64,000 nt of DNA from assembly GCF_015277675.1 (NCBI RefSeq), contig NZ_JADHEC010000022.1:1-64000 (forward strand), in the 5' to 3' direction. Positions 46,122-56,583 of this stretch are shown one piece after another; the first letter of the stretch is position 1; every line of letters begins with the position of its first letter. The notes beneath the pieces were generated by a model. It was not told the origin of the DNA and ran no database searches. It saw only the letters and a list, made by a program, of their open reading frames with translations. Source of the stretch: Flavobacterium soyangense. GTDB taxonomy: Bacteria; Bacteroidota; Bacteroidia; Flavobacteriales; Flavobacteriaceae. The position numbers and the translations under genes are program-made.

Positions 46122-47762
46122 TTAACTATTCACCGGTTTCCAAACCCCGTAACCACCATTGAGATTCACGGAATAAATATTGTTATTTCTCAATATTCGC
46201 TGTGCTAAATAACCTCTTAAACCTATCTGACAATATATAACATACTTTTTGTTTTTATCAAAGAAATCAAGATTATCTCTCAAAGTATCTACGTCCATAT
46301 TTATGGCTTTTGGTATGGCGCCATTTTCGAATTCTGTTTTGGTTCTTACGTCAATCAGGACTGCATTTTCGGTGGCAATATAATCGTTCAATTGGTCGTA
46401 ATTTATAAATCGTACATCATCGTTCAGCATATTTTCGGCAACGTAACCCAGAATATTCACAGGGTCTTTGGCCGAATTATAAGGCGGAGCATAGGCGACT
46501 TCAATTTCCTGTAAATCATAAATGGTTAAATTTCCTTTTATGGCCGTCGCCAAAACATCGATGCGCTTGTCAACTCCTTCTTGTCCTAAAGCCTGAGCAC
46601 CATAAATAGTTCCGTCTTCTCCGAAGTTCATTTTCAAAACAATATTCGTCGCTCCAGGATAATAACTGGCGTGATTCGCTCTGGTTACGGTAACGGTTCG
46701 GTACGGAATGTTATAGCGTTTCAATAATTTTTCGTTGAGTCCGGTTGCTCCAACGGTCAGATCGAAGAATTTTATAATCGAAGTTCCCAAAGTTCCTTTA
46801 TAGGAAATTTTATTTCCTCGAGTGATATTATCGGCAACAATTCGACCTTGGCGATTAGCCGGCCAAGCAAGCGGAATCAGCACTTTTGCCTGATTGATAT
46901 AATGTGAAACTTCTACGGCATCGCCCACGGCATAAATATCCGGATCCGAAGTTTGCATAAACTCGTTAACAGTAATTCCGCCAGTAACGCCAATATCGAG
47001 TCCGGCAGCTTTGGCCAAACTATTTTCGGGTTTTACACCAATGGCAAAAACGACTGCATCGGCAAGAATGGTTTTGCCATTATTCAATTTTAATTCAATT
47101 GCATTGCCTTTTTCTTCGAAAGCTTCGACGCCTGTATTGACAAGAATATTTAGCTTTTTGAAAGTTGCGTGATGTTGAACCATTTTTGCAAATTCATAAT
47201 CTACGGGAGCCATAACTTGGTTTCCTAATTCGATGACAGTTACACTGAGTCCTTTTTCAACCAGATTTTCCGCAACTTCCAAACCAATGAAACCGCCACC
47301 TACAACGGCAATATTCTTTAAATCCTTGGTTTTAGCAATGATTCTGTCCATATCGGCTACATTTCGAAGTGTCATTATTTTATCCGAACTAATTCCGGGA
47401 ATATTTGGTCTAAATGGTTCTGCACCGGGAGAAAGCAGTAATTTATCGTAGGTTTCGGTATACGTTTCTTTGGTGAAAAGATTTCGAACTTCGATATATT
47501 TTTCTGCTGCATTTATTTTCAAAACTTCATTAAAAATGCGAACATCTAAGTTATATCTTGTTTTTAAAGAAGAGGGAGTTTGCAATAATAATTTGGAACG
47601 TTCCACAATTACACCGCCTATATGATACGGTAACCCGCAATTGGCAAAACTCACATGTTCTCCTTTTTCGAAAATTATAATTTCATTTTCTTCACTCAAT
47701 CTTCTTAATCTTGCTGCGGCAGTGGCTCCACCGGCAACTCCGCCTATAATAAGTATTTTCAT
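46122..47762 (-). CDS. CoA-disulfide reductase with C-terminal rhodanese domain
   Basis: This 546-residue flavoprotein (FAD and NAD domains GGVAGGATAAARLRR and VVGGGFIGLEVAENLVEKG) has the active Cys in HVSFANCGLPYHIGG near residue 43, the CoADR/NADH-oxidase mark. Its last 100 residues are a rhodanese domain with active Cys in YCQIGLRGYLAQ. Such CDR-rhodanese fusions reduce CoA polysulfides or persulfides. It is divergent from the Crp/Fnr regulator, and a candidate operator lies between them. It is part of the sulfur module. Confidence 0.92.
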   Translation of the reverse strand: MKILIIGGVAGGATAAARLRRLSEENEIIIFEKGEHVSFANCGLPYHIGGVIVERSKLLLQTPSSLKTRYNLDVRIFNEVLKINAAEKYIEVRNLFTKETYTETYDKLLLSPGAEPFRPNIPGISSDKIMTLRNVADMDRIIAKTKDLKNIAVVGGGFIGLEVAENLVEKGLSVTVIELGNQVMAPVDYEFAKMVQHHATFKKLNILVNTGVEAFEEKGNAIELKLNNGKTILADAVVFAIGVKPENSLAKAAGLDIGVTGGITVNEFMQTSDPDIYAVGDAVEVSHYINQAKVLIPLAWPANRQGRIVADNITRGNKISYKGTLGTSIIKFFDLTVGATGLNEKLLKRYNIPYRTVTVTRANHASYYPGATNIVLKMNFGEDGTIYGAQALGQEGVDKRIDVLATAIKGNLTIYDLQEIEVAYAPPYNSAKDPVNILGYVAENMLNDDVRFINYDQLNDYIATENAVLIDVRTKTEFENGAIPKAINMDVDTLRDNLDFFDKNKKYVIYCQIGLRGYLAQRILRNNNIYSVNLNGGYGVWKPVNS

Positions 47763-47821
47763 CTGTAGCTAATTATGTTTTAATTCTGGAACAAATTTCT
47801 GCAAACCTTTTTTTAGGGTTT

Positions 47822-47835
47822 GTAGCTTTTGTTAC
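47822..47835. promoter_or_regulatory. Candidate Crp/Fnr operator GTAgC-N4-GTTAC
   Basis: GTAGCTTTTGTTAC differs by one base from GTAAC-N4-GTTAC. It sits 60 bases upstream of the CoA-disulfide reductase ATG (minus strand). The matching site is at 48614-48627. Confidence 0.5.
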
Positions 47836-47981
47836 ATAAGTTAAAATCTTTGAAATGAAAATGGGTTTTGGTAGAAATGGAGAAGGCAATATACTTAATA
47901 ATATTCCAAAGTATTTTTGTTTTGTTCTTAAAGTAGTTTTTTTTTGCGAAATTTACAGTTCTTAAAAAGTTAGAAACAATA

Positions 47982-48611
47982 ATGAAAGACTTACTCAAAC
48001 AAACCTACGGATATATATATGAAGAGAAATTAATTGATGAAATTGCCGAGGTTTCTTTGCTACGAGATTTCAAGGAAGGTGATATTCTTATTGATTTTGG
48101 TGATTCTATCAGAAAGATGCCTTTATTGATAAAAGGAGCTATTAAAATATTGCGTGAAGATTTTGATGCAGGCGAATTGTTATTATATTTTATTGAAAAA
48201 GGGGATACTTGCGCCATGACAATGGCCTGTTGTATGGGGGAAACCAAAAGTGAAATTAGAGCTGTTGCCGAAACAAATGGTATAGTTGTAATGATTCCGG
48301 TAATGAAAATGGAAGAATGGCTGGGGAAATATAAAAGCTGGAGGAATTTTGTTTTCAACAGTTATGATAATCGATTGAAAGAAATGCTTTCTGCGATTGA
48401 TAATTTGGCGTTCATGAATATGGATGAACGATTACTGAATTATCTTCAAGAAAAATCTAAAATAAATAACTCAAACGAAATTAATAATACGCATCAAGAA
48501 ATTGCCTATGACTTGCATACGTCCAGAGTTGTTGTTTCGCGCTTGTTAAAAGCATTAGAAAACAAAGGTAAAATCAGTTTAAACAGAGCTTCAATTGTAA
48601 TGCTGAATTAG
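47982..48611 (+). CDS. Crp/Fnr-family regulator with Cys cluster
   Basis: This 209-residue regulator has a cyclic-nucleotide-binding-like beta-roll (about 20-130) and a C-terminal HTH_Crp with HTSRVVVSRLLKALENKG as recognition region. In the roll it has GDTCAMTMACCMGETKSEIR, with three Cys residues instead of cAMP-binding residues. A redox or persulfide sensor is a good guess. It sits between the two sulfur units, and sites fitting GTAAC-N4-GTTAC flank it. No Fnr-type N-terminal Fe-S Cys set is present. Confidence 0.88.
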   Translation: MKDLLKQTYGYIYEEKLIDEIAEVSLLRDFKEGDILIDFGDSIRKMPLLIKGAIKILREDFDAGELLLYFIEKGDTCAMTMACCMGETKSEIRAVAETNGIVVMIPVMKMEEWLGKYKSWRNFVFNSYDNRLKEMLSAIDNLAFMNMDERLLNYLQEKSKINNSNEINNTHQEIAYDLHTSRVVVSRLLKALENKGKISLNRASIVMLN

Positions 48612-48613
48612 AG

Positions 48614-48627
48614 GTAACATTTGTTAC
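48614..48627 (+). promoter_or_regulatory. Candidate Crp/Fnr operator GTAAC-N4-GTTAC
   Basis: GTAACATTTGTTAC has perfect arms (GTAACA/TGTTAC). It lies directly after the regulator stop and 50 bases before the TauE gene. A -7-like TATTTTTG follows at 48650-48657. GTAAC-N4-GTTAC resembles the motif I recall for HcpR-type Crp/Fnr regulators. Confidence 0.6.
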
Positions 48628-48676
48628 AAAATTGAAATTATAAAAGACTTATTTTTGTGTCAATAAATTTTTATAA

Positions 48677-49480
48677 ATGGAAATATCTCAAATAATTGGT
48701 TACATTTTAGCAGTTTTTGTTGGCATGACACTAGGTATGTTAGGAAGTGGAGGTTCTATACTTTCTGTTCCTATTTTAGTGTATGTAATGGGCATCGAAC
48801 CTACATTGGCAACGGCTTATTCGTTATTTATAATTGGTACAACATCTTTGGTAGGCGGAATTCAAAAGGCCAGACAAAAATTAGTTGATTTTAATAAGGT
48901 TATTTTATTTGGCATTCCGGCGGTAATTACGGTTTTTATTACTCGAAAAATTCTTGTTCCAAGAATTCCGGATATTATTTTTTCGAGCGGAAACTTCACT
49001 TTGAGTAAGTCAATTCTTATTATGATAGTTTTTGCTGTTGTGATGATTTTTGCCTCGGTCAGAATGATAAAACCTATAAAAGGAAAAATTAATACAGATG
49101 GTGAAAAACTCAATTATTATAAAATAGCATTACTGGGAATTATTATTGGGCTTATTTCTGGATTTGTGGGAGCTGGAGGCGGATTTTTAATAGTTCCTAC
49201 TTTATTGTTTTTTGTAAAGACTCCAATGAAAATGGCTGTTGGAACTTCACTTTTTATAGTTTCTTCACAATCGTTAATTGGATTTATAGGAGACATAATG
49301 GGAAGCCAAATCATAGATTGGGGATTATTGCAACTCTTTACTTTAGCATCAATAATTGGAATATTTATTGGAAGTATCCTCTCCAAAAAAGTGGAAGATG
49401 AAAAACTGAAAACTGGTTTTGGTTGGTTTGTGCTTGCAATGGGAATTTACATCATTATAAAAGAACTTTTTATGTCATAA
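48677..49480 (+). CDS. TauE/SafE-family sulfite/anion exporter
   Basis: This 267-residue membrane protein has about eight helices and two related halves: FVGMTLGMLGSGGSILSVP near the start, and ISGFVGAGGGFLIVPTL in the second half. These glycine-rich repeats mark the TauE/SafE family, which exports sulfite, thiosulfate or other sulfur compounds. It is the first gene of the sulfur operon. The dioxygenase product sulfite is a likely cargo; this is inference. Confidence 0.9.
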   Translation: MEISQIIGYILAVFVGMTLGMLGSGGSILSVPILVYVMGIEPTLATAYSLFIIGTTSLVGGIQKARQKLVDFNKVILFGIPAVITVFITRKILVPRIPDIIFSSGNFTLSKSILIMIVFAVVMIFASVRMIKPIKGKINTDGEKLNYYKIALLGIIIGLISGFVGAGGGFLIVPTLLFFVKTPMKMAVGTSLFIVSSQSLIGFIGDIMGSQIIDWGLLQLFTLASIIGIFIGSILSKKVEDEKLKTGFGWFVLAMGIYIIIKELFMS

Positions 49481-49560
49481 TAATTTCATAAAATGTTGCT
49501 TGTGAGGTAGAAAGTAATTAAAAAATTAAATAAATTTACATTATAAATACACTTTGAAAA

Positions 49561-50967
49561 ATGAAAATTAAACAAATTTATACAGGTTGTTTAGCACAAG
49601 GAGCCTATTATATAGAGAGTAAAGGAGAAGTCGCCATTATAGATCCATTGCGTGAAGTACAGCCTTATATTGATAAAGCGAATAAAAATAATGCAAAAAT
49701 CAAGTATATTTTTGAAACCCATTTCCACGCTGATTTTGTTAGTGGTCACGTTACTTTAGCCAAAAAAACAGGCGCTCCAATAATATTCGGGCCAACGGCC
49801 AATCCTAGTTTTGAGGCTCATATTGCCACTGATGGCGAAGTTTTTAAATTAGGAGAAATTACAATAACGGTTTTGCATACACCCGGACATACATTAGAAA
49901 GTTCTTGTTATCTTTTGAAGGATAAAAATGGCAAGGATTACGCACTTTTTAGTGGTGATACCTTATTTTTAGGTGATGTTGGTCGTCCAGATTTAGCCCA
50001 AAAAGCGGCTAATATGACTAAAGAACAACTGGCTGGAATTTTGTTTGATAGTTTAAGAAACAAAGTGATGACTCTAGCTGATGATGTCATTGTTTATCCG
50101 GCTCATGGTGCCGGAAGTGCCTGTGGCAAAAATTTGAGCAAGGAAACAATAGGCTCTATTGGGGAGCAAAAGCGAATAAATTATGCGCTTCGTGCCAATA
50201 TGACAAAAGATGAATTTATTAAGGAAGTTACGGACGGTTTATTGTCTCCGCCAGCTTATTTCCCAATGAATGTGAAACTCAATAAAGAAGGTTATGAAAA
50301 TGTGGAAGACATTATTAGTGAAGCCATTGCTTATGATGCCAAAACTTTTGAATTAGTTGCCAATAAAATCGATACTGTAATTCTTGACGTTCGTCATCAG
50401 GATGATTTTGCAAAAGGACATATTCCAAAATCTATTTTCATAGGCATCGACGGAGATTTTGCTCCATGGGTTGGGGCTTTAATTCCAGACATCAAACAGC
50501 CTTTACTATTGGTAACACCTATAGGCAGAGAGGAGGAGAGTATCACGCGTTTAGCACGAGTAGGCTATGACAATACCTTGGGTTATTTGAAAGGGGGATT
50601 TGATACTTGGAAAACTGCCGGAATGGAATATGATACCGTAAATTCGGTTACAGCCGAGACTTTAGAAGAAATAATGGAGGAAAAAGTTCCCGTTTTTGAT
50701 GTCAGAAAAGAAGGAGAATATACCGCTGAACATATTGTTGATGTTCCGTCAACGCCTTTGGATTTTATTAATGACCATTTATCCGAATTTCCAAAAGAAG
50801 AAGAATTTTATTTGCATTGTGCTGGAGGATATCGTTCTATGATTGCGGCGTCAATTCTAAAAGCAAGAGGTTATCATAATGTAATTAATGTTTTAGGCGG
50901 ATTTACTGCCATTAAAAAAACTGCGATTAAAACCACAAATTATGTTTGTCCAACAACATCAAAATAA
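49561..50967 (+). CDS. MBL-fold persulfide dioxygenase-like protein fused to two rhodanese domains
   Basis: This 468-residue enzyme has an MBL domain (residues about 1-250) with ETHFHADFVSGH, TPGHTLESSCYLL, FSGDTLFLGDVGRPD and VYPAHGAGSACG, the ETHE1/persulfide dioxygenase pattern. The first rhodanese (about 255-360) lacks a Cys in its active loop (LLLVTPIGREEE). The second (about 365-460) has the Cys in LHCAGGYRS. The likely reaction is oxidation of glutathione- or bacillithiol-like persulfide to sulfite, with sulfur transfer by the second rhodanese. The thiol used is not known. Confidence 0.9.
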   Translation: MKIKQIYTGCLAQGAYYIESKGEVAIIDPLREVQPYIDKANKNNAKIKYIFETHFHADFVSGHVTLAKKTGAPIIFGPTANPSFEAHIATDGEVFKLGEITITVLHTPGHTLESSCYLLKDKNGKDYALFSGDTLFLGDVGRPDLAQKAANMTKEQLAGILFDSLRNKVMTLADDVIVYPAHGAGSACGKNLSKETIGSIGEQKRINYALRANMTKDEFIKEVTDGLLSPPAYFPMNVKLNKEGYENVEDIISEAIAYDAKTFELVANKIDTVILDVRHQDDFAKGHIPKSIFIGIDGDFAPWVGALIPDIKQPLLLVTPIGREEESITRLARVGYDNTLGYLKGGFDTWKTAGMEYDTVNSVTAETLEEIMEEKVPVFDVRKEGEYTAEHIVDVPSTPLDFINDHLSEFPKEEEFYLHCAGGYRSMIAASILKARGYHNVINVLGGFTAIKKTAIKTTNYVCPTTSK

Positions 50968-50968
50968 G

Positions 50969-51172
50969 ATGAAAAATTTACTGTTTACAAATTGGCATTT
51001 AATGCGTTGGGCACGATTAGCTTTTGCAGTTTTTCTATTTGTTCAGGCTTATACCATTCACGAGTGGCTTTTTATAGCTTTTGGTTTGTTTTTTTTATTT
51101 CAGGTTATTTTCAATTTAGGCTGTGGGCCAAATGGCTGCGCTGTTCCAAACAATAAATATTCAAAAAAATGA
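50969..51172 (+). CDS. Small membrane protein with C-terminal Cys pair
   Basis: This 67-residue protein has two hydrophobic helices (LAFAVFLFVQAY and LFIAFGLFFLFQVIFNL) and ends with GCGPNGCAVPNNKYSKK. The C-terminal CGPNGC pair resembles those in small proteins of sulfur islands; I know no function for it. I start at the ATG at 50969, one base after the dioxygenase stop; the longer reading overlaps it. Its stop overlaps the thioredoxin ATG by four bases. Confidence 0.8.
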   Translation: MKNLLFTNWHLMRWARLAFAVFLFVQAYTIHEWLFIAFGLFFLFQVIFNLGCGPNGCAVPNNKYSKK

Positions 51173-51471
51173 ACAATAGTTTTGAAAATATTATCCAATC
51201 AGAAAAACCAGTTTTGATTGATTTTTTCGCTACTTGGTGTGGACCTTGTAAAACGCTTGCGCCAATTTTAAAACAGGTTAAAGACAATATGGGAGAACGA
51301 ATTACCATACTAAAAATTGATGTGGACAAGAACCAGGAATTAGCAGCAAAATATCAGGTTCGTGGAGTTCCTACAATGGTTTTGTTTCAAAGCGGTAAGC
51401 AATTGTGGCGTCAATCCGGAGTTTTAAGCAAAGAAGAAATTTTAAAAACGATTTTAGAAAAAAGTAACTAA
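51169..51471 (+). CDS. Thioredoxin-family protein
   Basis: This 100-residue cytoplasmic disulfide reductase has the active site FFATWCGPCKTLAP and the cis-Pro segment VRGVPTMVLFQSG. It overlaps both neighbours by the ATGA-type or shared-base joints typical of tightly coupled operons. In this setting it may reduce persulfides or restore the rhodanese or dioxygenase Cys. It is not necessarily the main cellular thioredoxin. Confidence 0.93.
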   Translation: MNNSFENIIQSEKPVLIDFFATWCGPCKTLAPILKQVKDNMGERITILKIDVDKNQELAAKYQVRGVPTMVLFQSGKQLWRQSGVLSKEEILKTILEKSN

Positions 51472-51668
51472 TGACTAAGAAATCAATGATTATAAGAGGA
51501 ATAGGAATAATTATTGGAGCAATTGCAGGTTATCTTTATTACTTTTATGTTGGTTGTGCTTCCGGAACCTGTGCTATAACATCAAAACCGTTGAATAGCA
51601 CTTTGTACGGCGCATTAATGGGCGGATTGATATTCAATATATTTGTAAAATCACCAAAAAGATTTTAA
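51471..51668 (+). CDS. DUF6132-like small membrane protein
   Basis: This 65-residue protein has an N-terminal helix (IRGIGIIIGAIAGYLYYFYV), then the Cys pair GCASGTC, AITSKPLNSTLYGALMGG, and a second helix. This matches what I recall for DUF6132, common in Bacteroidota near thioredoxin and sulfur genes. The two Cys residues close to the membrane suggest a redox or sulfur-binding role, not proved. It starts inside the thioredoxin stop. Confidence 0.82.
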   Translation: MTKKSMIIRGIGIIIGAIAGYLYYFYVGCASGTCAITSKPLNSTLYGALMGGLIFNIFVKSPKRF

Positions 51669-51696
51669 TATTTTTAACCAATTAAATTCAAAAATC

Positions 51697-51900
51697 ATGA
51701 AAAAAAACATGGGCTCAACAGACAAAATTATCCGTATTCTTATCGCTCTTGTAATTGTGGGTTTGTGGTACAAGGAAATAATTAGCGGAACAATCGCTAC
51801 AGTTTTGGGAGTATTTGTTATTATCTTTTTACTTACAAGTTTAATCAGTTTTTGCCCTTTGTATTCGATGTTTGGTATAAATACCTCTAAAAAATCTTAA
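51697..51900 (+). CDS. DUF2892-family small membrane protein
   Basis: This 67-residue protein has NMGSTDKIIRILIALVIVGL, a second helix, and the C-terminal CPLYSMFGINT. That is the DUF2892 pattern known from the membrane tail of the YgaP rhodanese. Function is unknown, but it regularly appears with rhodaneses. Here it is the sixth gene after the regulator, fourth small membrane/thiol gene of the operon. Confidence 0.85.
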   Translation: MKKNMGSTDKIIRILIALVIVGLWYKEIISGTIATVLGVFVIIFLLTSLISFCPLYSMFGINTSKKS

Positions 51901-51910
51901 TGAAAATTGA

Positions 51911-52213
51911 ATGAAAACTGAAAGTCCAATAAATAAGGATCTTATTTTAAGAGAGCGATTGGCTTTGCAAAGAACAATCTTAGCCAATCAATCTACTTTT
52001 TTAGCATTTCTTAGAACATCGCTTTATTTTTTTGTTGCCGGATTAAGCATAACTAGTTTGTTAAATTTGACTAACAGTATCACTATTGAAATATTCTTCT
52101 TTACTAGTTCATTCATAATTTTTTTGATAGGAATTGTAAATTATTTCAGGCAGAAAAAATTAATTATAGAAAGCGAAAAAAATATTGGAGATTTTATAAA
52201 TAATTATTTATAA
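51911..52213 (+). CDS. DUF202-family membrane protein
   Basis: This 100-residue protein has three hydrophobic helices. The N-terminal motif RERLALQRTILANQSTFLAFLRTSLYF resembles the DUF202/YidH pattern (NxRTxLAWxRT). It ends 17 bases before the TPMT-like gene. Role unknown. Confidence 0.78.
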   Translation: MKTESPINKDLILRERLALQRTILANQSTFLAFLRTSLYFFVAGLSITSLLNLTNSITIEIFFFTSSFIIFLIGIVNYFRQKKLIIESEKNIGDFINNYL

Positions 52214-52230
52214 ATTAAGAAATCAATTAC

Positions 52231-52833
52231 ATGATGGCAAATGAAAAACAACTGGATCAAGAATATTGGAATAACCAATATAATACTAACGCTACCGGTT
52301 GGGATTTAGGAAAAGTTTCTCCTTCAATAAAAGAATATATTGACACATTAAAAAACAAGAATAGTAGAATTTTAATTCCGGGTTGCGGTAATTCTTACGA
52401 AGCAGAATATCTTTTAGGTCAAGGTTTTACTAATGTTACGGTTATTGATATTGCACCAACATTAGTTGAAAGCCTTCAAGAAAAATTCAAAAATTATCCC
52501 AATATAAAAATTATGTTAGGTGATTTTTTTGCTCTCAAAGGCAAATATGATTTAATTTTGGAACAAGCTTTTTTCTGTGCTTTATCACCAACATTGCGTC
52601 AAAAATACGTTTTGAAAATGAACCAACTTTTGGTTGAAAATGGTAAATTAGTTGGATTATTATTTAATAAAAATTTTGATGGCGGCCCACCTTTTGGAGG
52701 AAGCAAAGCAGAATATGAGCACCTATTTAAAAATTATTTTGAATTTAAAATATTCGAATTATGCCATAATTCAATTAAACCTAGAGCAAATTCCGAATTA
52801 TTTTTTGAATTCCAAAAGAAAGATGTAAAATAA
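52231..52833 (+). CDS. TPMT-like S-methyltransferase
   Basis: This 200-residue SAM enzyme has WDLGKVSPSIKEYI, motif I ILIPGCGNSYEAEYLLGQG, the acidic VTVIDIAPT, and GGPPFGGSKAEYEHLF. This is the thiopurine/thiol methyltransferase family. Position at the end of a sulfide operon suggests it methylates sulfide or small thiols, making methanethiol or a methylated product. That is inference. It has two possible ATG starts (52231, 52234). A terminator follows. Confidence 0.85.
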   Translation: MMANEKQLDQEYWNNQYNTNATGWDLGKVSPSIKEYIDTLKNKNSRILIPGCGNSYEAEYLLGQGFTNVTVIDIAPTLVESLQEKFKNYPNIKIMLGDFFALKGKYDLILEQAFFCALSPTLRQKYVLKMNQLLVENGKLVGLLFNKNFDGGPPFGGSKAEYEHLFKNYFEFKIFELCHNSIKPRANSELFFEFQKKDVK

Positions 52834-52858
52834 TTTTATTTCATTAATAAAATATTTT

Positions 52859-52887
52859 AAGTATTTCATGCTGAAATACTTTTTTTA
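52859..52887 (+). terminator. Terminator of the sulfur operon
   Basis: AAGTATTTCA and TGAAATACTT form a perfect stem with loop TGC, followed by a T-run. Confidence 0.88.
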
Positions 52888-52889
52888 TT

Positions 52890-52913
52890 TACCTTTGTTA
52901 ACCATATGGTTAA
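52890..52913 (+). promoter_or_regulatory. TetR promoter and operator
   Basis: TACCTTTG (52890-52897, exact TAnnTTTG -7) is followed directly by the perfect 16-bp palindrome TTAACCATATGGTTAA (52898-52913), which covers the expected transcription start. It is a likely binding site of the TetR regulator encoded next. Confidence 0.65.
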
Positions 52914-52932
52914 ACTAAACAGTTAATTCAGA

Positions 52933-53526
52933 ATGACAACCGAAGAAAAAATATTCAATGCCGCCCGGATTGTATTCCAAAAAAAAGGTTTTGCCGGTGC
53001 TCGAATGCAGGAAATAGCCGATGAAGCGGGCATAAACAAAGCAATGTTACATTATTGTTTTAAGAATAAAGAATTGCTTTTTAAGGCAATTTTCATGAAT
53101 GCTTTTGGTCAGTTAGCGCCCCAAATTAACGAGATTTTTAATTCTCAAGAAACGGTTTTTGATAAAATAACCAAGTTTACCCATAGTTATATCTCGTTTG
53201 TGATTCTTAATCCGTATTTGCCGCAATTCGTAATTCAGGAAATGAATAACAATCCTGAGTTTGTGATGTCTTTTATGAATTATGAGAATAGACCGAATCC
53301 TGCTGTCTTAATTGCCCAAATCGAAAAAGAAATTATGGACGGAATCATAAGACCGATTCATCCAAAACAGCTTTTGCTGGATATTTTTTCGATGACTGTT
53401 TTTCCGTTTGCCGCTAAAATGATGGTAAAAGGAATGATCCAAATTTCAGATGCAGAATTCAATCTAATGATGGAAGAACGTAAAACATCCATTGCTGAAC
53501 AAATCATTAATTCAATTAAAAAATGA
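52933..53526 (+). CDS. TetR/AcrR-family regulator of the efflux operon
   Basis: This 197-residue repressor has the N-terminal [23 protein letters not shown], then [15 protein letters not shown]. The ligand-binding C-terminal domain follows. Its stop overlaps the TolC ATG (ATGA-type overlap), so it is in the efflux operon and probably represses it by binding the palindrome upstream. The inducer is probably an efflux substrate. Confidence 0.93.
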
Positions 53527-54785
53527 AACTACTTTTAAAGATAACATTTGCATTTTTGCTGTTGCCAATTTTATCCAATGCACAACAAACTTTGTCATTG
53601 GAAAATTGCTATGATTTAGTCAATAAAAATTATCCTTTGGCCAAACAAACGGAATTATTGCAACAAAAATCAGCTTTCGAAATTGATGCACTCATCAAAG
53701 GGAAATTGCCTAAAATTGATCTTAATGCACAAGGAACCTATCAATCAGCGGTTACGGAATTGCCGATTCATTTGCCAAATCTAACGGTGAATCCAGCTAA
53801 TAAAGACCAATATCGTGCGACTTTAGATGTCAATCAATTGGTGTATAATGGTGGAATAATTGATGCGAATTCTAAACTTAAAGAAGTTCAAACCAAAACA
53901 CAGCAACAACAAGTTACGGTAAATTTATACCAAATTAAAACCAAAATCAATCAGTTATATTTTTCGGTTTTGTTGTTGCAGGAACGAAAAGCGATTCTGA
54001 TTTCGAAACAAGAGCAATTGATTACTAAAATTAATGAAGTGAAAGCCGGCGTTAAATTTGGTGCTATTTTTCCCGCTTCGGAGAAAGTGCTTGAAGCCGA
54101 AAATTTGAAAATTAAACAGCAACTTGTCGAAATTCAATTTGATAAAAAACGATTATTAGAAAATTTATCTTCGCTTACTTTTTCGACAATTGACGAAAAT
54201 ATTACTTTGGTTCTACCAATAATTTCCAATGATTTTAATCTAGAAAATAATCGTCCAGAACTAAAATTGTTTGATTTTCAAAATGAGCAAATTGAGGATT
54301 CAAAAAATATAATTTCTAAAAATAAGTTGCCAAAAATAAATGCTTTTGGTCAAGCGGGTTATGGAAATCCTGGCTTGAATATGTTGGATAATTCATTTCA
54401 AACTTTTTATTTGGTGGGCTTGAAAGCCAATTGGAATGTGTTCGATTGGAATAAATCAAAAACTGAGAAACAAGCGCTTTCAGTTTCAGCAAACATCGTT
54501 TCGACAGAAAAAGAGACTTTTTTGCTGAACAATAAGTTACAATTACAAGAAATGGAAAATGAAATTCATAAAACGGAAGCTGTTATCAATACCGATTCGG
54601 AAATCATTTCCTTGCTTGAATATGTTGTCAAATCTTCGGATTCACAATTGAAAAATGGCGTGATAACTTCATCGGAATATTTGGTGGAATTCACCAATTT
54701 GTATGAAGCCAAAACGAATCAAAAACTGCATGCAATTCAATTGGCTTTGGCGAAAGCGAATTATCAAACTGTAAAAGGAAACTAA
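53523..54785 (+). CDS. TolC-family outer membrane efflux protein
   Basis: This 420-residue protein has signal peptide [19 protein letters not shown] and two TolC-like coiled-coil repeats ([20 protein letters not shown] early; the second half with [20 protein letters not shown]). It should form the trimeric outer-membrane duct. It overlaps the TetR gene and is followed by the adaptor gene after 18 bases. Confidence 0.9.
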
Positions 54786-54803
54786 AAATAAAAATGTATA
54801 ATA

Positions 54804-55679
54804 ATGAAAAAAATAATCACATTTCTAATGTTTGCAAGTCTAGTTTCTTGTAATAAAAACCAAGACAAAGCCGATGGTTACGGCAATTTTGAAGCTACAG
54901 AAGTTACGATTTCGGCAGAAGCCAACGGAAATATCGAATATTTAAAACTCGAAGAAGGCGATATTCTTGAACCAAAAATACAAGTTGGCTTGGTTGATAC
55001 CACGCAATTATATTTCAATAAGCAGCAATTAATTGCTTCAAAAGCAACTGTTTTTTCGAAATCTAAAAACGTGTTGTCACAAAGAAATGTATTGCAAGAG
55101 CAACTCAAAACTACATTGATTGAGAAAAACAGAATCGAAAATATGTTTGCCGAAAACGCTGCAACTAAACGCCAAGTTGACGAAATTATTGGTAAAGTAA
55201 ATGTGTTGAATGAGCAGATAAAAAGCGTCGAAACCCAAAATGCGCCAATTGTAAATGATGTCAAATCGATTGATGTTCAAATCGAAAAAATCAACGACCA
55301 AATGGAGAAAAGCAAAATTATCAATCCAATAAAAGGAACAGTTTTGGCCAAATATGCCGAGGCAAATGAAGTTACTTCTTTTGGAAAACCACTTTATAAA
55401 ATCGCCGATATTTCCGAAATGACTTTACGCGTTTTTATCAGCGAAAACCAATTATCGAAAATAAAAGTAGGTCAAAATGTGAGCGTAAAAATTGATTCGG
55501 ATAAAGAAATGAAATCGTATCAAGGAACTGTTTCTTGGATTTCATCTTCGGCCGAATTCACGCCAAAAGTAATTCAAACCAAGGAAGAACGCGTGAATTT
55601 AGTTTATGCCGTGAAAGTGAAAGTAAAAAATGACGGAACTTTAAAAATAGGAATGCCGGCTGAAATGTGGGTAAAATAA
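54804..55679 (+). CDS. HlyD-family periplasmic adaptor (lipoprotein)
   Basis: This 291-residue membrane-fusion protein has an N-terminal lipobox (FASLVSC), a lipoyl-like half (FEATEVTISAEANGNIEYLK), a coiled-coil hairpin, and the second barrel part (INPIKGTVLAKYAEANEVTS). It links the ABC transporter to TolC. The lipid anchor replaces the usual N-terminal helix. Confidence 0.92.
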   Translation: MKKIITFLMFASLVSCNKNQDKADGYGNFEATEVTISAEANGNIEYLKLEEGDILEPKIQVGLVDTTQLYFNKQQLIASKATVFSKSKNVLSQRNVLQEQLKTTLIEKNRIENMFAENAATKRQVDEIIGKVNVLNEQIKSVETQNAPIVNDVKSIDVQIEKINDQMEKSKIINPIKGTVLAKYAEANEVTSFGKPLYKIADISEMTLRVFISENQLSKIKVGQNVSVKIDSDKEMKSYQGTVSWISSSAEFTPKVIQTKEERVNLVYAVKVKVKNDGTLKIGMPAEMWVK

Positions 55680-55686
55680 TTATTTA

Positions 55687-56583
55687 ATGGGTATAATTGT
55701 TCAAAATATTTCCAAATCCTACAACAAAATCAAAGCTATTGATGCGATTTCTTTTGAAGTAAAAGAAGGAGAATTGTTTGGATTGATTGGACCTGATGGA
55801 GCAGGTAAGACGACAATTTTTAGAATACTGACGACACTTTTGCTTGCCAATGAGGGTTCAGCATCCGTTGCGGGTTTCGATGTGGTGAAAGATTATAAAG
55901 CCATTCGGAATTCCGTTGGTTATATGCCTGGAAAATTTTCGTTGTATCAGGATTTATCCGTGGAGGAAAACCTGAAATTTTTCGCCACTATTTTCGGGAC
56001 AACGATTGAAGAAAATTATGATTTAATCAAAGATATTTACATCCAAATCGAACCTTTCAAAGCGAGAAGGGCAGGAGCACTTTCGGGCGGTATGAAACAA
56101 AAACTTGCACTTTGTTGTGCTTTGATTCATAAACCAAAAGTCCTTTTTCTTGACGAACCCACCACGGGAGTGGATCCCGTTTCTCGGAAAGAATTTTGGG
56201 AAATGCTCAAGCGATTGCAAGAAAAAGGTCTCACGATTTTAGTTTCCACGCCTTATATGGATGAGGCTGAGCTCTGTGACCGAATCGCTTTAATCCAAAA
56301 AGGAAGTATTTTAAAAATTGATAAACCCGCAAACATTATTAAGGATTATCATCGAATAATTTATGATGTTAAAGCAAAAAACAGGCACCAATTAATTCTG
56401 GATTTGAAAAATTATCCAAGCCAATATAGCGTTTTTGCCTTTGGAGAATACATCCATTATATTGATAAAAATGAAAATTTTAGTGCAACGGATTTAGATA
56501 ATTATTTACGACAAAATCAACATTCAGAAATAGAAATTCGGGTTACAAACCCAACAATTGAAGATGTTTTCATGGATTTATAA
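55687..56583 (+). CDS. ABC transporter ATP-binding protein 1
   Basis: This 298-residue ATPase has Walker A GPDGAGKTT, signature LSGGMKQK, Walker B VLFLDEPT, and a long C-terminal part (about 215-298) resembling the N-terminal half of YbhF. The D-loop region reads GVDPVSRKEFWEM. It starts 7 bases after the adaptor. The second ATPase gene follows after 84 bases with no gene; I see only AT-rich spacer there. Confidence 0.94.
   Translation: MGIIVQNISKSYNKIKAIDAISFEVKEGELFGLIGPDGAGKTTIFRILTTLLLANEGSASVAGFDVVKDYKAIRNSVGYMPGKFSLYQDLSVEENLKFFATIFGTTIEENYDLIKDIYIQIEPFKARRAGALSGGMKQKLALCCALIHKPKVLFLDEPTTGVDPVSRKEFWEMLKRLQEKGLTILVSTPYMDEAELCDRIALIQKGSILKIDKPANIIKDYHRIIYDVKAKNRHQLILDLKNYPSQYSVFAFGEYIHYIDKNENFSATDLDNYLRQNQHSEIEIRVTNPTIEDVFMDL

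Follow-up and report, generated by a model that had tools for sequence, protein, structure and literature searches.

A predicted persulfide detoxification regulon under a Crp/Fnr-family regulator in Flavobacterium soyangense and other Flavobacteriaceae

We examined a locus at positions 46122 to 52833 of a 64,000-nucleotide stretch of Flavobacterium soyangense DNA (contig NZ_JADHEC010000022.1, positions 1 to 64,000; hereafter, the window), in which the gene of a Crp/Fnr regulator lies between a divergent gene for a CoA-disulfide reductase (CoADR)-rhodanese fusion and eight genes on the plus strand. An earlier note on this DNA had described the locus as a sulfide/persulfide module organized around that regulator, and each of the ten reading frames that it claimed is present at the coordinates and on the strand given here, with family scans backing the assignments:

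46122..47762, minus strand: CoA-disulfide/CoA-persulfide reductase fused to a C-terminal rhodanese, with Cys42 and Cys511 (PDB and family scans)
47792..47835, minus strand: predicted activator promoter of the CoADR gene, GTAACaaaaGCTAC-N22-GAaaTTTG, 2 mismatches (motif match)
47982..48611, plus strand: Crp/Fnr regulator, 209 amino acids (aa), with Cys77, Cys83, and Cys84 (Pfam, AlphaFold2, CRP alignment)
48614..48657, plus strand: predicted activator promoter of the operon, palindrome 48614-48627, N22, -7 box TATTTTTG at 48650-48657 (motif match)
48677..49480, plus strand: predicted TauE/SafE exporter (PF01925, 141 bits, E 6.5e-41)
49561..50967, plus strand: persulfide dioxygenase (PDO)-like protein with MBL domain, Cys-less rhodanese, and rhodanese with Cys420 (PDB profile matches)
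50942..51172, plus strand: M76, a 76-aa small membrane protein with CGPNGC, start probably at 50969 (Cys conservation)
51169..51471, plus strand: thioredoxin, WCGPC (TIGR01068, 114 bits, cut-off 96.8)
51471..51668, plus strand: DUF6132 protein with GCASGTC (PF19628, 32.8 bits, above cut-off)
51697..51900, plus strand: YgaP-like transmembrane protein (PF11127, YgaP-like_TM, E 1.8e-20, above cut-off)
51911..52213, plus strand: DUF202 protein (PF02656, 34.7 bits, above cut-off)
52231..52833, plus strand: SAM-dependent methyltransferase of thiol/halide type (PF05724, 107.7 bits, cut-off 26)

The eight plus-strand genes downstream of the regulator, which end at 52833, overlap or are separated by gaps of 10 to 80 bp, an arrangement as in one operon.

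Enzymes and small membrane proteins of the locus

Residues 3 to 451 of the PDO align with single chains of PDB entries 3tp9 (E 2.5e-66) and 3r2u (E 6.7e-54), along the MBL region and both rhodanese regions, and its linker motif AGSxCGK is common to the two entries. The ligand-type motifs THFHAD, HTPGH, SGD, and PAHG are present; no Cys occurs between residues 188 and 420, which leaves the first rhodanese Cys-less, and Cys420 lies within the CAGGYRS motif of the second. An MBL domain, a Cys-less rhodanese, and an active rhodanese make up the CstB layout, and the PDO carries all three over its full length. By layout, the protein is a predicted CstB-like persulfide dioxygenase, in agreement with its earlier description as a persulfide dioxygenase-like MBL protein with two rhodaneses.

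The CoADR fusion aligns over its full length with a CoA-disulfide reductase (PDB 3icr, E 4.8e-185) and with an entry named "Coenzyme A-persulfide reductase" (PDB 8a56, E 1e-159). It falls short of the curated TIGR03385 cut-off (523.8 vs 578.8 bits) and passes PRK13512 (395.4 bits, cut-off 394), and its Cys42 and Cys511 are the single active Cys and the C-terminal rhodanese Cys of a CoA-persulfide reductase fusion.

The last gene of the operon had been labeled as resembling thiopurine methyltransferase (TPMT). The label holds for PF05724, which the protein passes, and fails for thiopurine methyltransferase itself, since the TIGR03840 model gives 73.5 bits against a cut-off of 223.2. The best PDB matches are a halide methyl transferase (8ajp, E 8.3e-22) and thiol methyltransferase 1 (9h0g, E 1.2e-20), with 9h04 and 3lcc also among the best solved relatives. 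The protein is better read as a putative thiol/halide methyltransferase relative, its substrate being a prediction.

Four small membrane proteins had also been noted, two with Cys pairs, and those pairs proved to be conserved. In M76, which matches no family in the Pfam scan and which its hydrophobic sequence suggests to be a membrane protein, every one of the 33 ungapped rows keeps both Cys of CxxxxC (34 rows including the window); conservation begins at the second Met, hence the probable start given above. Both Cys of the DUF6132 protein are kept in 30 of 30 rows, and the YgaP-like protein keeps one Cys in 20 of 20. By eye only, CxxxxC of M76 and GC-x4-C of DUF6132 look like the Cys motifs of YeeE-type carriers, and a role of these small Cys-pair proteins in sulfur handling is a guess.

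A composite promoter and its predicted regulon

Behind the regulator gene lies a composite promoter, GTAAC-N4-GTTAC-N22-TAnnTTTG, with rigid spacing. Our first locus set comprised 60 hand-chosen regulator loci of 12 to 17 kb each (individual loci are cited by L numbers). Among 60 intergenic regions behind the regulator (the window plus 59 loci, L068 being omitted), 34 contain the perfect palindrome GTAAC-N4-GTTAC, and across 30 single-base shuffles any one inverted repeat was found in at most 3 loci. For 69 of the 130 palindromes in these loci, TAnnTTTG lies exactly 22 bp from the palindrome end, compared with 2 each at 21 and 23 bp and at most 2 at any other distance. In F. psychrophilum, TAnnTTTG is the sigma-A -7 box and spans -12 to -5 (PMC9723704). 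Placing the window box likewise gives a predicted +1 at about 48662 and a palindrome centered at -41.5. This is the classical position of a class II activator.

The window site at 48614-48657 is the sole exact composite match in the 3.47-Mb genome, and the next-best site, with one mismatch, lies upstream of a pair of rhodanese genes, 57 bp from the ATG of the leading gene. On the CoADR side, GTAACaaaaGCTAC is followed at the same 22-bp spacing by a near-consensus box. This palindrome variant and its spacing are kept in 11 of 11 loci with a divergent CoADR gene (2 mismatches in ten, 3 in L164), and the 22-bp spacer sequence itself diverges among them. The claim that the locus is organized around the regulator finds stronger support here than the note alone could give, in that a conserved promoter, predicted to be of activator type, precedes both transcription units.

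The exact composite site occurs in 202 of 299 family genomes, as opposed to 3 with a reversed-pattern control that was read by eye, and in 36 of 395 genomes of a phylum sample, where no reversed match was seen. The second set, 80 named loci taken as the best of 361, mostly from Flavobacterium and several on short contigs, contains 21 exact sites and 61 with at most one mismatch (reversed control, 0 and 1). The motif tracks the close ortholog of the regulator (E < 1e-50), being present in 195 of 238 genomes with it and 7 of 61 without it (Fisher, 6e-25); it was found in 5 of 23 genomes with weaker homologs only and in 2 of 38 with no homolog. Within the genus, a comparison in which relatedness and genome size are more evenly balanced, the motif is present in 6 of 6 genomes with the close ortholog and 1 of 18 without it (p = 5e-5).

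We defined the predicted regulon as the first gene behind each of 70 exact sites. Sulfur genes form the largest named group, with 28 first genes: TauE (10), PDO (7), SulP (6, carriers that may move anions other than sulfate), rhodanese (2), YeeE (1), SQR-like (1), and a fatty-acid hydroxylase followed by a PDO-like gene (1). The commonest single target is TolC (17 sites). An RND adaptor follows TolC in 8 of the 17, the others being mostly too short to show it. At these 17 sites and in L218 and L220, TolC comes with an RND adaptor and permease where the sequence was read far enough, and in L220 a YgaP-like membrane gene comes next. The substrate of the TolC-RND pump may be a sulfur species.

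Thiol-redox genes account for 6 further sites (thioredoxin/TlpA, 2; Thioredoxin_9-like, 2; peroxiredoxin, 1; OsmC, 1), and a 120-aa protein leading a DoxX, DsrE-like, and partly SoxB-like operon accounts for another 6. Within the latter group, L310 alone was scanned, the five remaining sites were assigned because their first proteins, and the next genes where these were shown, are similar, and the DsrE-like and SoxB-like matches fall below curated cut-offs. The order motif, 120-aa protein, DoxX, DsrE-like protein is seen in L310, L313, L316, and L307, and L146 and L321 were assigned by the first protein; a SoxB-like protein follows, as judged from the scan in L310 and by eye in L313. This operon is possibly a flavobacterial thiosulfate branch. 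The remaining sites precede DUF983 or the regulator itself (4, including two with DUF983 and then the regulator), cytochrome c/Tll0287 (3), YgaP-like genes 92 to 298 bp away (3), a lone fatty-acid hydroxylase (1), HYC_CC_PP (1), and no gene that could be found (1).

The regulator and its neighborhood

The only Pfam domains above cut-off in the regulator are cNMP_binding (33.1 bits, cut-off 27.5), HTH_Crp_2 (32.3, cut-off 27), and Crp; a cNMP-binding beta-roll with a Crp-type HTH places it in the Crp/Fnr family. The Pfam scan puts it outside the CsoR, ArsR, and sigma54-activator families (the CstR, BigR-SqrR, and FisR types), and it is not CRP proper (PRK11753, 52.6 bits vs an equivalog cut-off of 266). 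The AlphaFold2 model shows a Crp fold (mean pLDDT, 87.3), for which structure comparison returns CRP/FNR entries (top match, 4ev0, Z 16.0, root-mean-square deviation 5.5 over 200 residues). The best profile match is 3dv8 (E 3.5e-29), a solved Crp/Fnr protein from Eubacterium rectale that has C-x5-C at the position of the regulator cysteines and differs in having only 22% identity to the regulator in the structure alignment. A single member of this regulator group occurs in the window genome (338 bits, the runner-up scoring 54).

The three Cys residues pointed out earlier are indeed the only ones, at positions 77, 83, and 84. Of 59 sequences, 59 retain Cys77, 59 retain Cys83, and 57 retain Cys84 (the window plus 58 loci; L049 and L068 are left out, their gene start being called elsewhere or not at all). 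In the profile alignment the three Cys fall on the CRP stretch GDFIgELGL..eegq, the phosphate-binding cassette for cAMP. In a distant sample of 20 hand-chosen loci, where the regulator is 33 to 55% identical, C-x5-CC is found in 10, C-x5-C in 7, and GG in 3, which corresponds to C77 in 20, C83 in 17, and C84 in 10 of the 20; the full set of three Cys is therefore no fixed requirement. At least one tested sulfur or pump family lies within about 6 kb in 17 of these 20 loci. In four loci of the genus Flavobacterium lacking the close ortholog (L266-L268 and L270), a 42-44% identical homolog with CAISMIC and the recognition helix SREVVSR adjoins TauE and the motif is absent; these homologs are probably a sister group with another DNA site.

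A regulator homolog (E <= 0.001) is present in 261 of 299 family genomes and in 231 of 249 high-quality genomes. Among the 60 hand-chosen loci, we counted PDO in 42, TauE in 33, rhodanese in 26, cytochrome c/Tll0287 in 19, YeeE-like and HMA in 15 each, CydA and CydB in 12 each, SulP and SQR-like in 11 each, and thioredoxin in 10, where accessory family labels are based on one scanned representative per family and SQR-like lies below its curated cut-off. The 80 named loci contain TauE and PDO in 54 each, thioredoxin in 43, M76 in 33, DUF6132 in 29, YgaP in 19, TolC in 16, TPMT in 15, CoADR in 13 (11 divergent), SQR-like in 12, and DUF202 in 5. The earlier note had proposed a search for the same gene order in related genomes and counted unconserved neighbors as a refutation, which the core of the locus escapes and parts of the set do not. 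The order regulator-TauE-PDO does recur across Flavobacteriaceae, whereas the divergent CoADR gene (11 of 80, each beside a regulator 87-94% identical) and DUF202 (5 of 80) do not hold their places, and the complete ten-gene order of the window was seen only among close relatives. The core of the locus is conserved, and its periphery is modular. TPMT was rejected as a constant operon member, with strong matches (at least 180 bits) in 13 of 60 loci and 15 of the 80 named loci; the protein cluster that contains it spans 19 of 60 loci when weak matches are included.

The regulator-TauE-PDO core across Flavobacteriaceae reads as a detoxification operon, a variant of the Staphylococcus cst type. 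The S. aureus cst operon is a tauE-cstA-cstB-sqr persulfide regulon under CstR, and it resembles the window locus in placing TauE beside a CstB-like MBL-rhodanese dioxygenase with one dedicated regulator (PMC5480029). It differs in having a CsoR-type repressor, whereas the window has a Crp/Fnr protein with activator-type promoter geometry, adds CoADR-rhodanese, thioredoxin, small Cys membrane proteins, and the methyltransferase, and lacks SQR in the operon. The FisR/BigR regulons of Acinetobacter baumannii share persulfide dioxygenase, SQR, TauE, and YeeE/YedE (as PDO-SQR-TauE and YeeE/YedE-PDO, with raised CydAB), and FisR is also an activator (PMC7315123). FisR acts with sigma54 and BigR is an ArsR repressor, in contrast to the sigma-A-type box and the palindrome at -41.5 in the window. 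Since the neighbors of the regulator match the persulfide regulons described there (PMC5480029, PMC7315123), they support a persulfide reading. The yrkD-pdo cluster of Bacillus licheniformis is alike in TauE, thioredoxin (YdfQ), and rhodanese, with two PDOs (PMC9918477); it is controlled by the CstR-like YrkD and the two-component NreBC rather than by a Crp/Fnr protein.

Proposed mechanism and competing explanations

Flavobacteriaceae meet sulfide in sediments and biofilms. Homology, conserved neighborhood, and predicted regulon all back the sulfide/persulfide reading of the earlier note, and we put the probability that the locus belongs to a sulfide/persulfide detoxification regulon under a dedicated Crp/Fnr activator, with the mechanism below, at about 0.62, judging from sequence. 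Gene identities, Cys conservation, promoter geometry, the joint occurrence of regulator and motif, and the content of the predicted regulon come directly from the computation; DNA binding, the signal, activation as opposed to repression, and what the methyltransferase and the small membrane proteins do are our inferences. Activation is suggested by the position at -41.5 and by the motif standing before many separate genes, and a persulfide or polysulfide signal is suggested by C77 in the effector cassette together with the regulon content, which makes persulfide the likely signal.

According to this proposal, rising low-molecular-weight persulfides or polysulfides would modify Cys77 (plus Cys83 and Cys84 where present), in the region that binds cAMP in CRP. 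The regulator dimer would then bind GTAAC-N4-GTTAC centered at -41.5 and recruit sigma-A polymerase at the TAnnTTTG box in class II style, turning on TauE-PDO-thioredoxin-methyltransferase in one direction and CoA-persulfide reductase/rhodanese in the other. PDO and rhodanese would oxidize persulfide sulfur to sulfite or thiosulfate, which TauE would export; CoADR and thioredoxin would return persulfides to the reduced state, and hydrosulfide or thiols may be capped by the methyltransferase.

Several observations weigh against the proposal. The family-wide co-occurrence statistics ignore phylogeny, 43 of the 238 genomes that encode a close ortholog lack the exact site, and the site occurs in 7 genomes that have no close ortholog. 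We chose the 60 loci by hand, one genome supplied several of the 70 regulon sites, and the most frequent target, the TolC pump, is not established as a sulfur gene. Within the window genome, the control outnumbers the bare palindrome (28 vs 12 strand matches) and matches with up to three mismatches are not above chance (70 vs 127 strand matches with the reversed control), so that what carries the signal is the complete composite motif together with its conservation. Matches with two or three mismatches are thus mostly noise and were rejected; we used only the exact site, the one-mismatch rhodanese site, and the phylogenetically conserved CoADR site. Confidence in the structural model is lowest in the Cys region (mean pLDDT of 74 and 64 in its two blocks). 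In 3 of 20 distant homologs GG replaces Cys83-84, and these still adjoin TauE, PDO, or thioredoxin, so the Cys triad is not needed for the association with sulfur genes, and 3 of the 20 distant loci (L275, L276, and L282) lack any tested neighbor family. Finally, Porphyromonas loveana (L232) has a 68% identical regulator with no sulfur genes recognized alongside, for which transfer, contamination, or another role are possible readings.

The same regulon and activator could answer another signal, either a small ligand in the cNMP pocket (a nucleotide, a thiol, or sulfite/thiosulfate) or general thiol oxidation, with the Cys residues being structural or auxiliary. Crp/Fnr proteins mostly bind ligands, C83 and C84 are dispensable in the wider family, and OsmC, peroxiredoxin, and thioredoxins are among the motif targets. 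PMC7315123, moreover, cites allosteric activation of Vfr and PrfA by glutathione. We nevertheless consider this alternative rather unlikely, as the Cys residues lie within the cassette itself, with C77 in all 59 close and 20 distant sequences, and sulfide/persulfide genes form the largest named target group. An ordinary cst-like operon with a regulator that responds to oxygen or redox state in the manner of FNR or HcpR, with the sulfur genes as part of respiration, would fit membership in Crp/Fnr and the CydA and CydB genes near the regulator in 12 of 60 loci each. FNR, however, needs an N-terminal cysteine cluster for its [4Fe-4S] group, and FNR-type Fe-S sensing is ruled out by a regulator whose sole Cys are 77, 83, and 84; the only respiratory-type first genes matched at the 70 sites are the 3 of cytochrome c/Tll0287, which together make this explanation improbable. 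Slimmer still are the chances of a copper or soft-metal sensor, in which the Cys group would bind Cu(I) and the sulfur genes would answer copper sulfide stress. HMA-domain genes in 15 of 60 loci, the TolC pump as commonest target, and one HYC_CC_PP target speak for it, whereas the RND permease of L220, the only one scanned, gives 461 bits with a multidrug model against 244 with the CusA/CzcA model, both below cut-off, and the GG regulator variants retain the sulfur neighborhood; no search aimed at copper genes as such was made.

Relative to known systems, the enzymes are of known kinds and the gene set is cst-like; the novelty of the detoxification regulon would lie in control by a Crp/Fnr regulator and a composite promoter. 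The persulfide sensors compared, drawn from PMC9918477, PMC5480029, and PMC7315123 among other sources, are CstR, SqrR, BigR, FisR, YrkD, OxyR, CsoR, and MarR-family proteins, with NreBC as a sulfide sensor, and they fall into the CsoR, ArsR, MarR, LysR-type (OxyR), sigma54, and two-component families. Crp of A. baumannii is persulfidated with unknown effect (PMC7315123), and a Flavobacteriales CRP/FNR protein is described near MalR in the part of PMC8510549 compared, where the composite motif is not given. Among the top matches in the open PMC literature we found no sensor of persulfide or sulfide from the Crp/Fnr family, a weak argument that none has been described, and the passages compared name no sulfide regulator for Flavobacteriaceae.

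The step to a new sensor class is plausible. For the full proposition, that a Crp/Fnr-fold persulfide sensor with cysteine chemistry in place of cAMP acts as a class II activator at a near-invariant promoter and governs a sulfur regulon across Flavobacteriaceae and part of Bacteroidota, we see even odds. If true, it would add a new structural class and an activator to the persulfide sensors, and the TolC-RND pump, the DoxX-SoxB-like operons, and the small Cys-pair membrane proteins would be new sulfur-handling parts. The composite promoter offers a ready regulon finder for conserved unexplained genes: it would tie the TolC-RND pump, the fatty-acid hydroxylase, and the DoxX-SoxB-like operon to sulfur stress and, via the operon, also the DUF6132 and CGPxGC proteins.

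Some minor observations concern the surroundings of the locus and of the motif. One of the two-mismatch matches set aside, at C95 (L099), lies between genes reading by eye as enolase and citrate synthase. A scan of 47700-53000 for sigma70-type promoters and terminators gave little information, with 32 promoter-like hits against 25.1 expected and 7 terminator-like hits against 3.1. At 52933-56583 of the window, on the same strand and 100 bp past the methyltransferase gene, are genes that read as TetR, TolC, an HlyD-type protein, and an ABC exporter, which are probably a unit separate from the sulfide operon. Elsewhere in the window genome, a 44-bp stretch is found 12 times, with one further variant (e.g., C3:60-103, C7:59-102, and C33:216-259), with three copies within 260 bp of a contig start, and is a repeat or mobile element.

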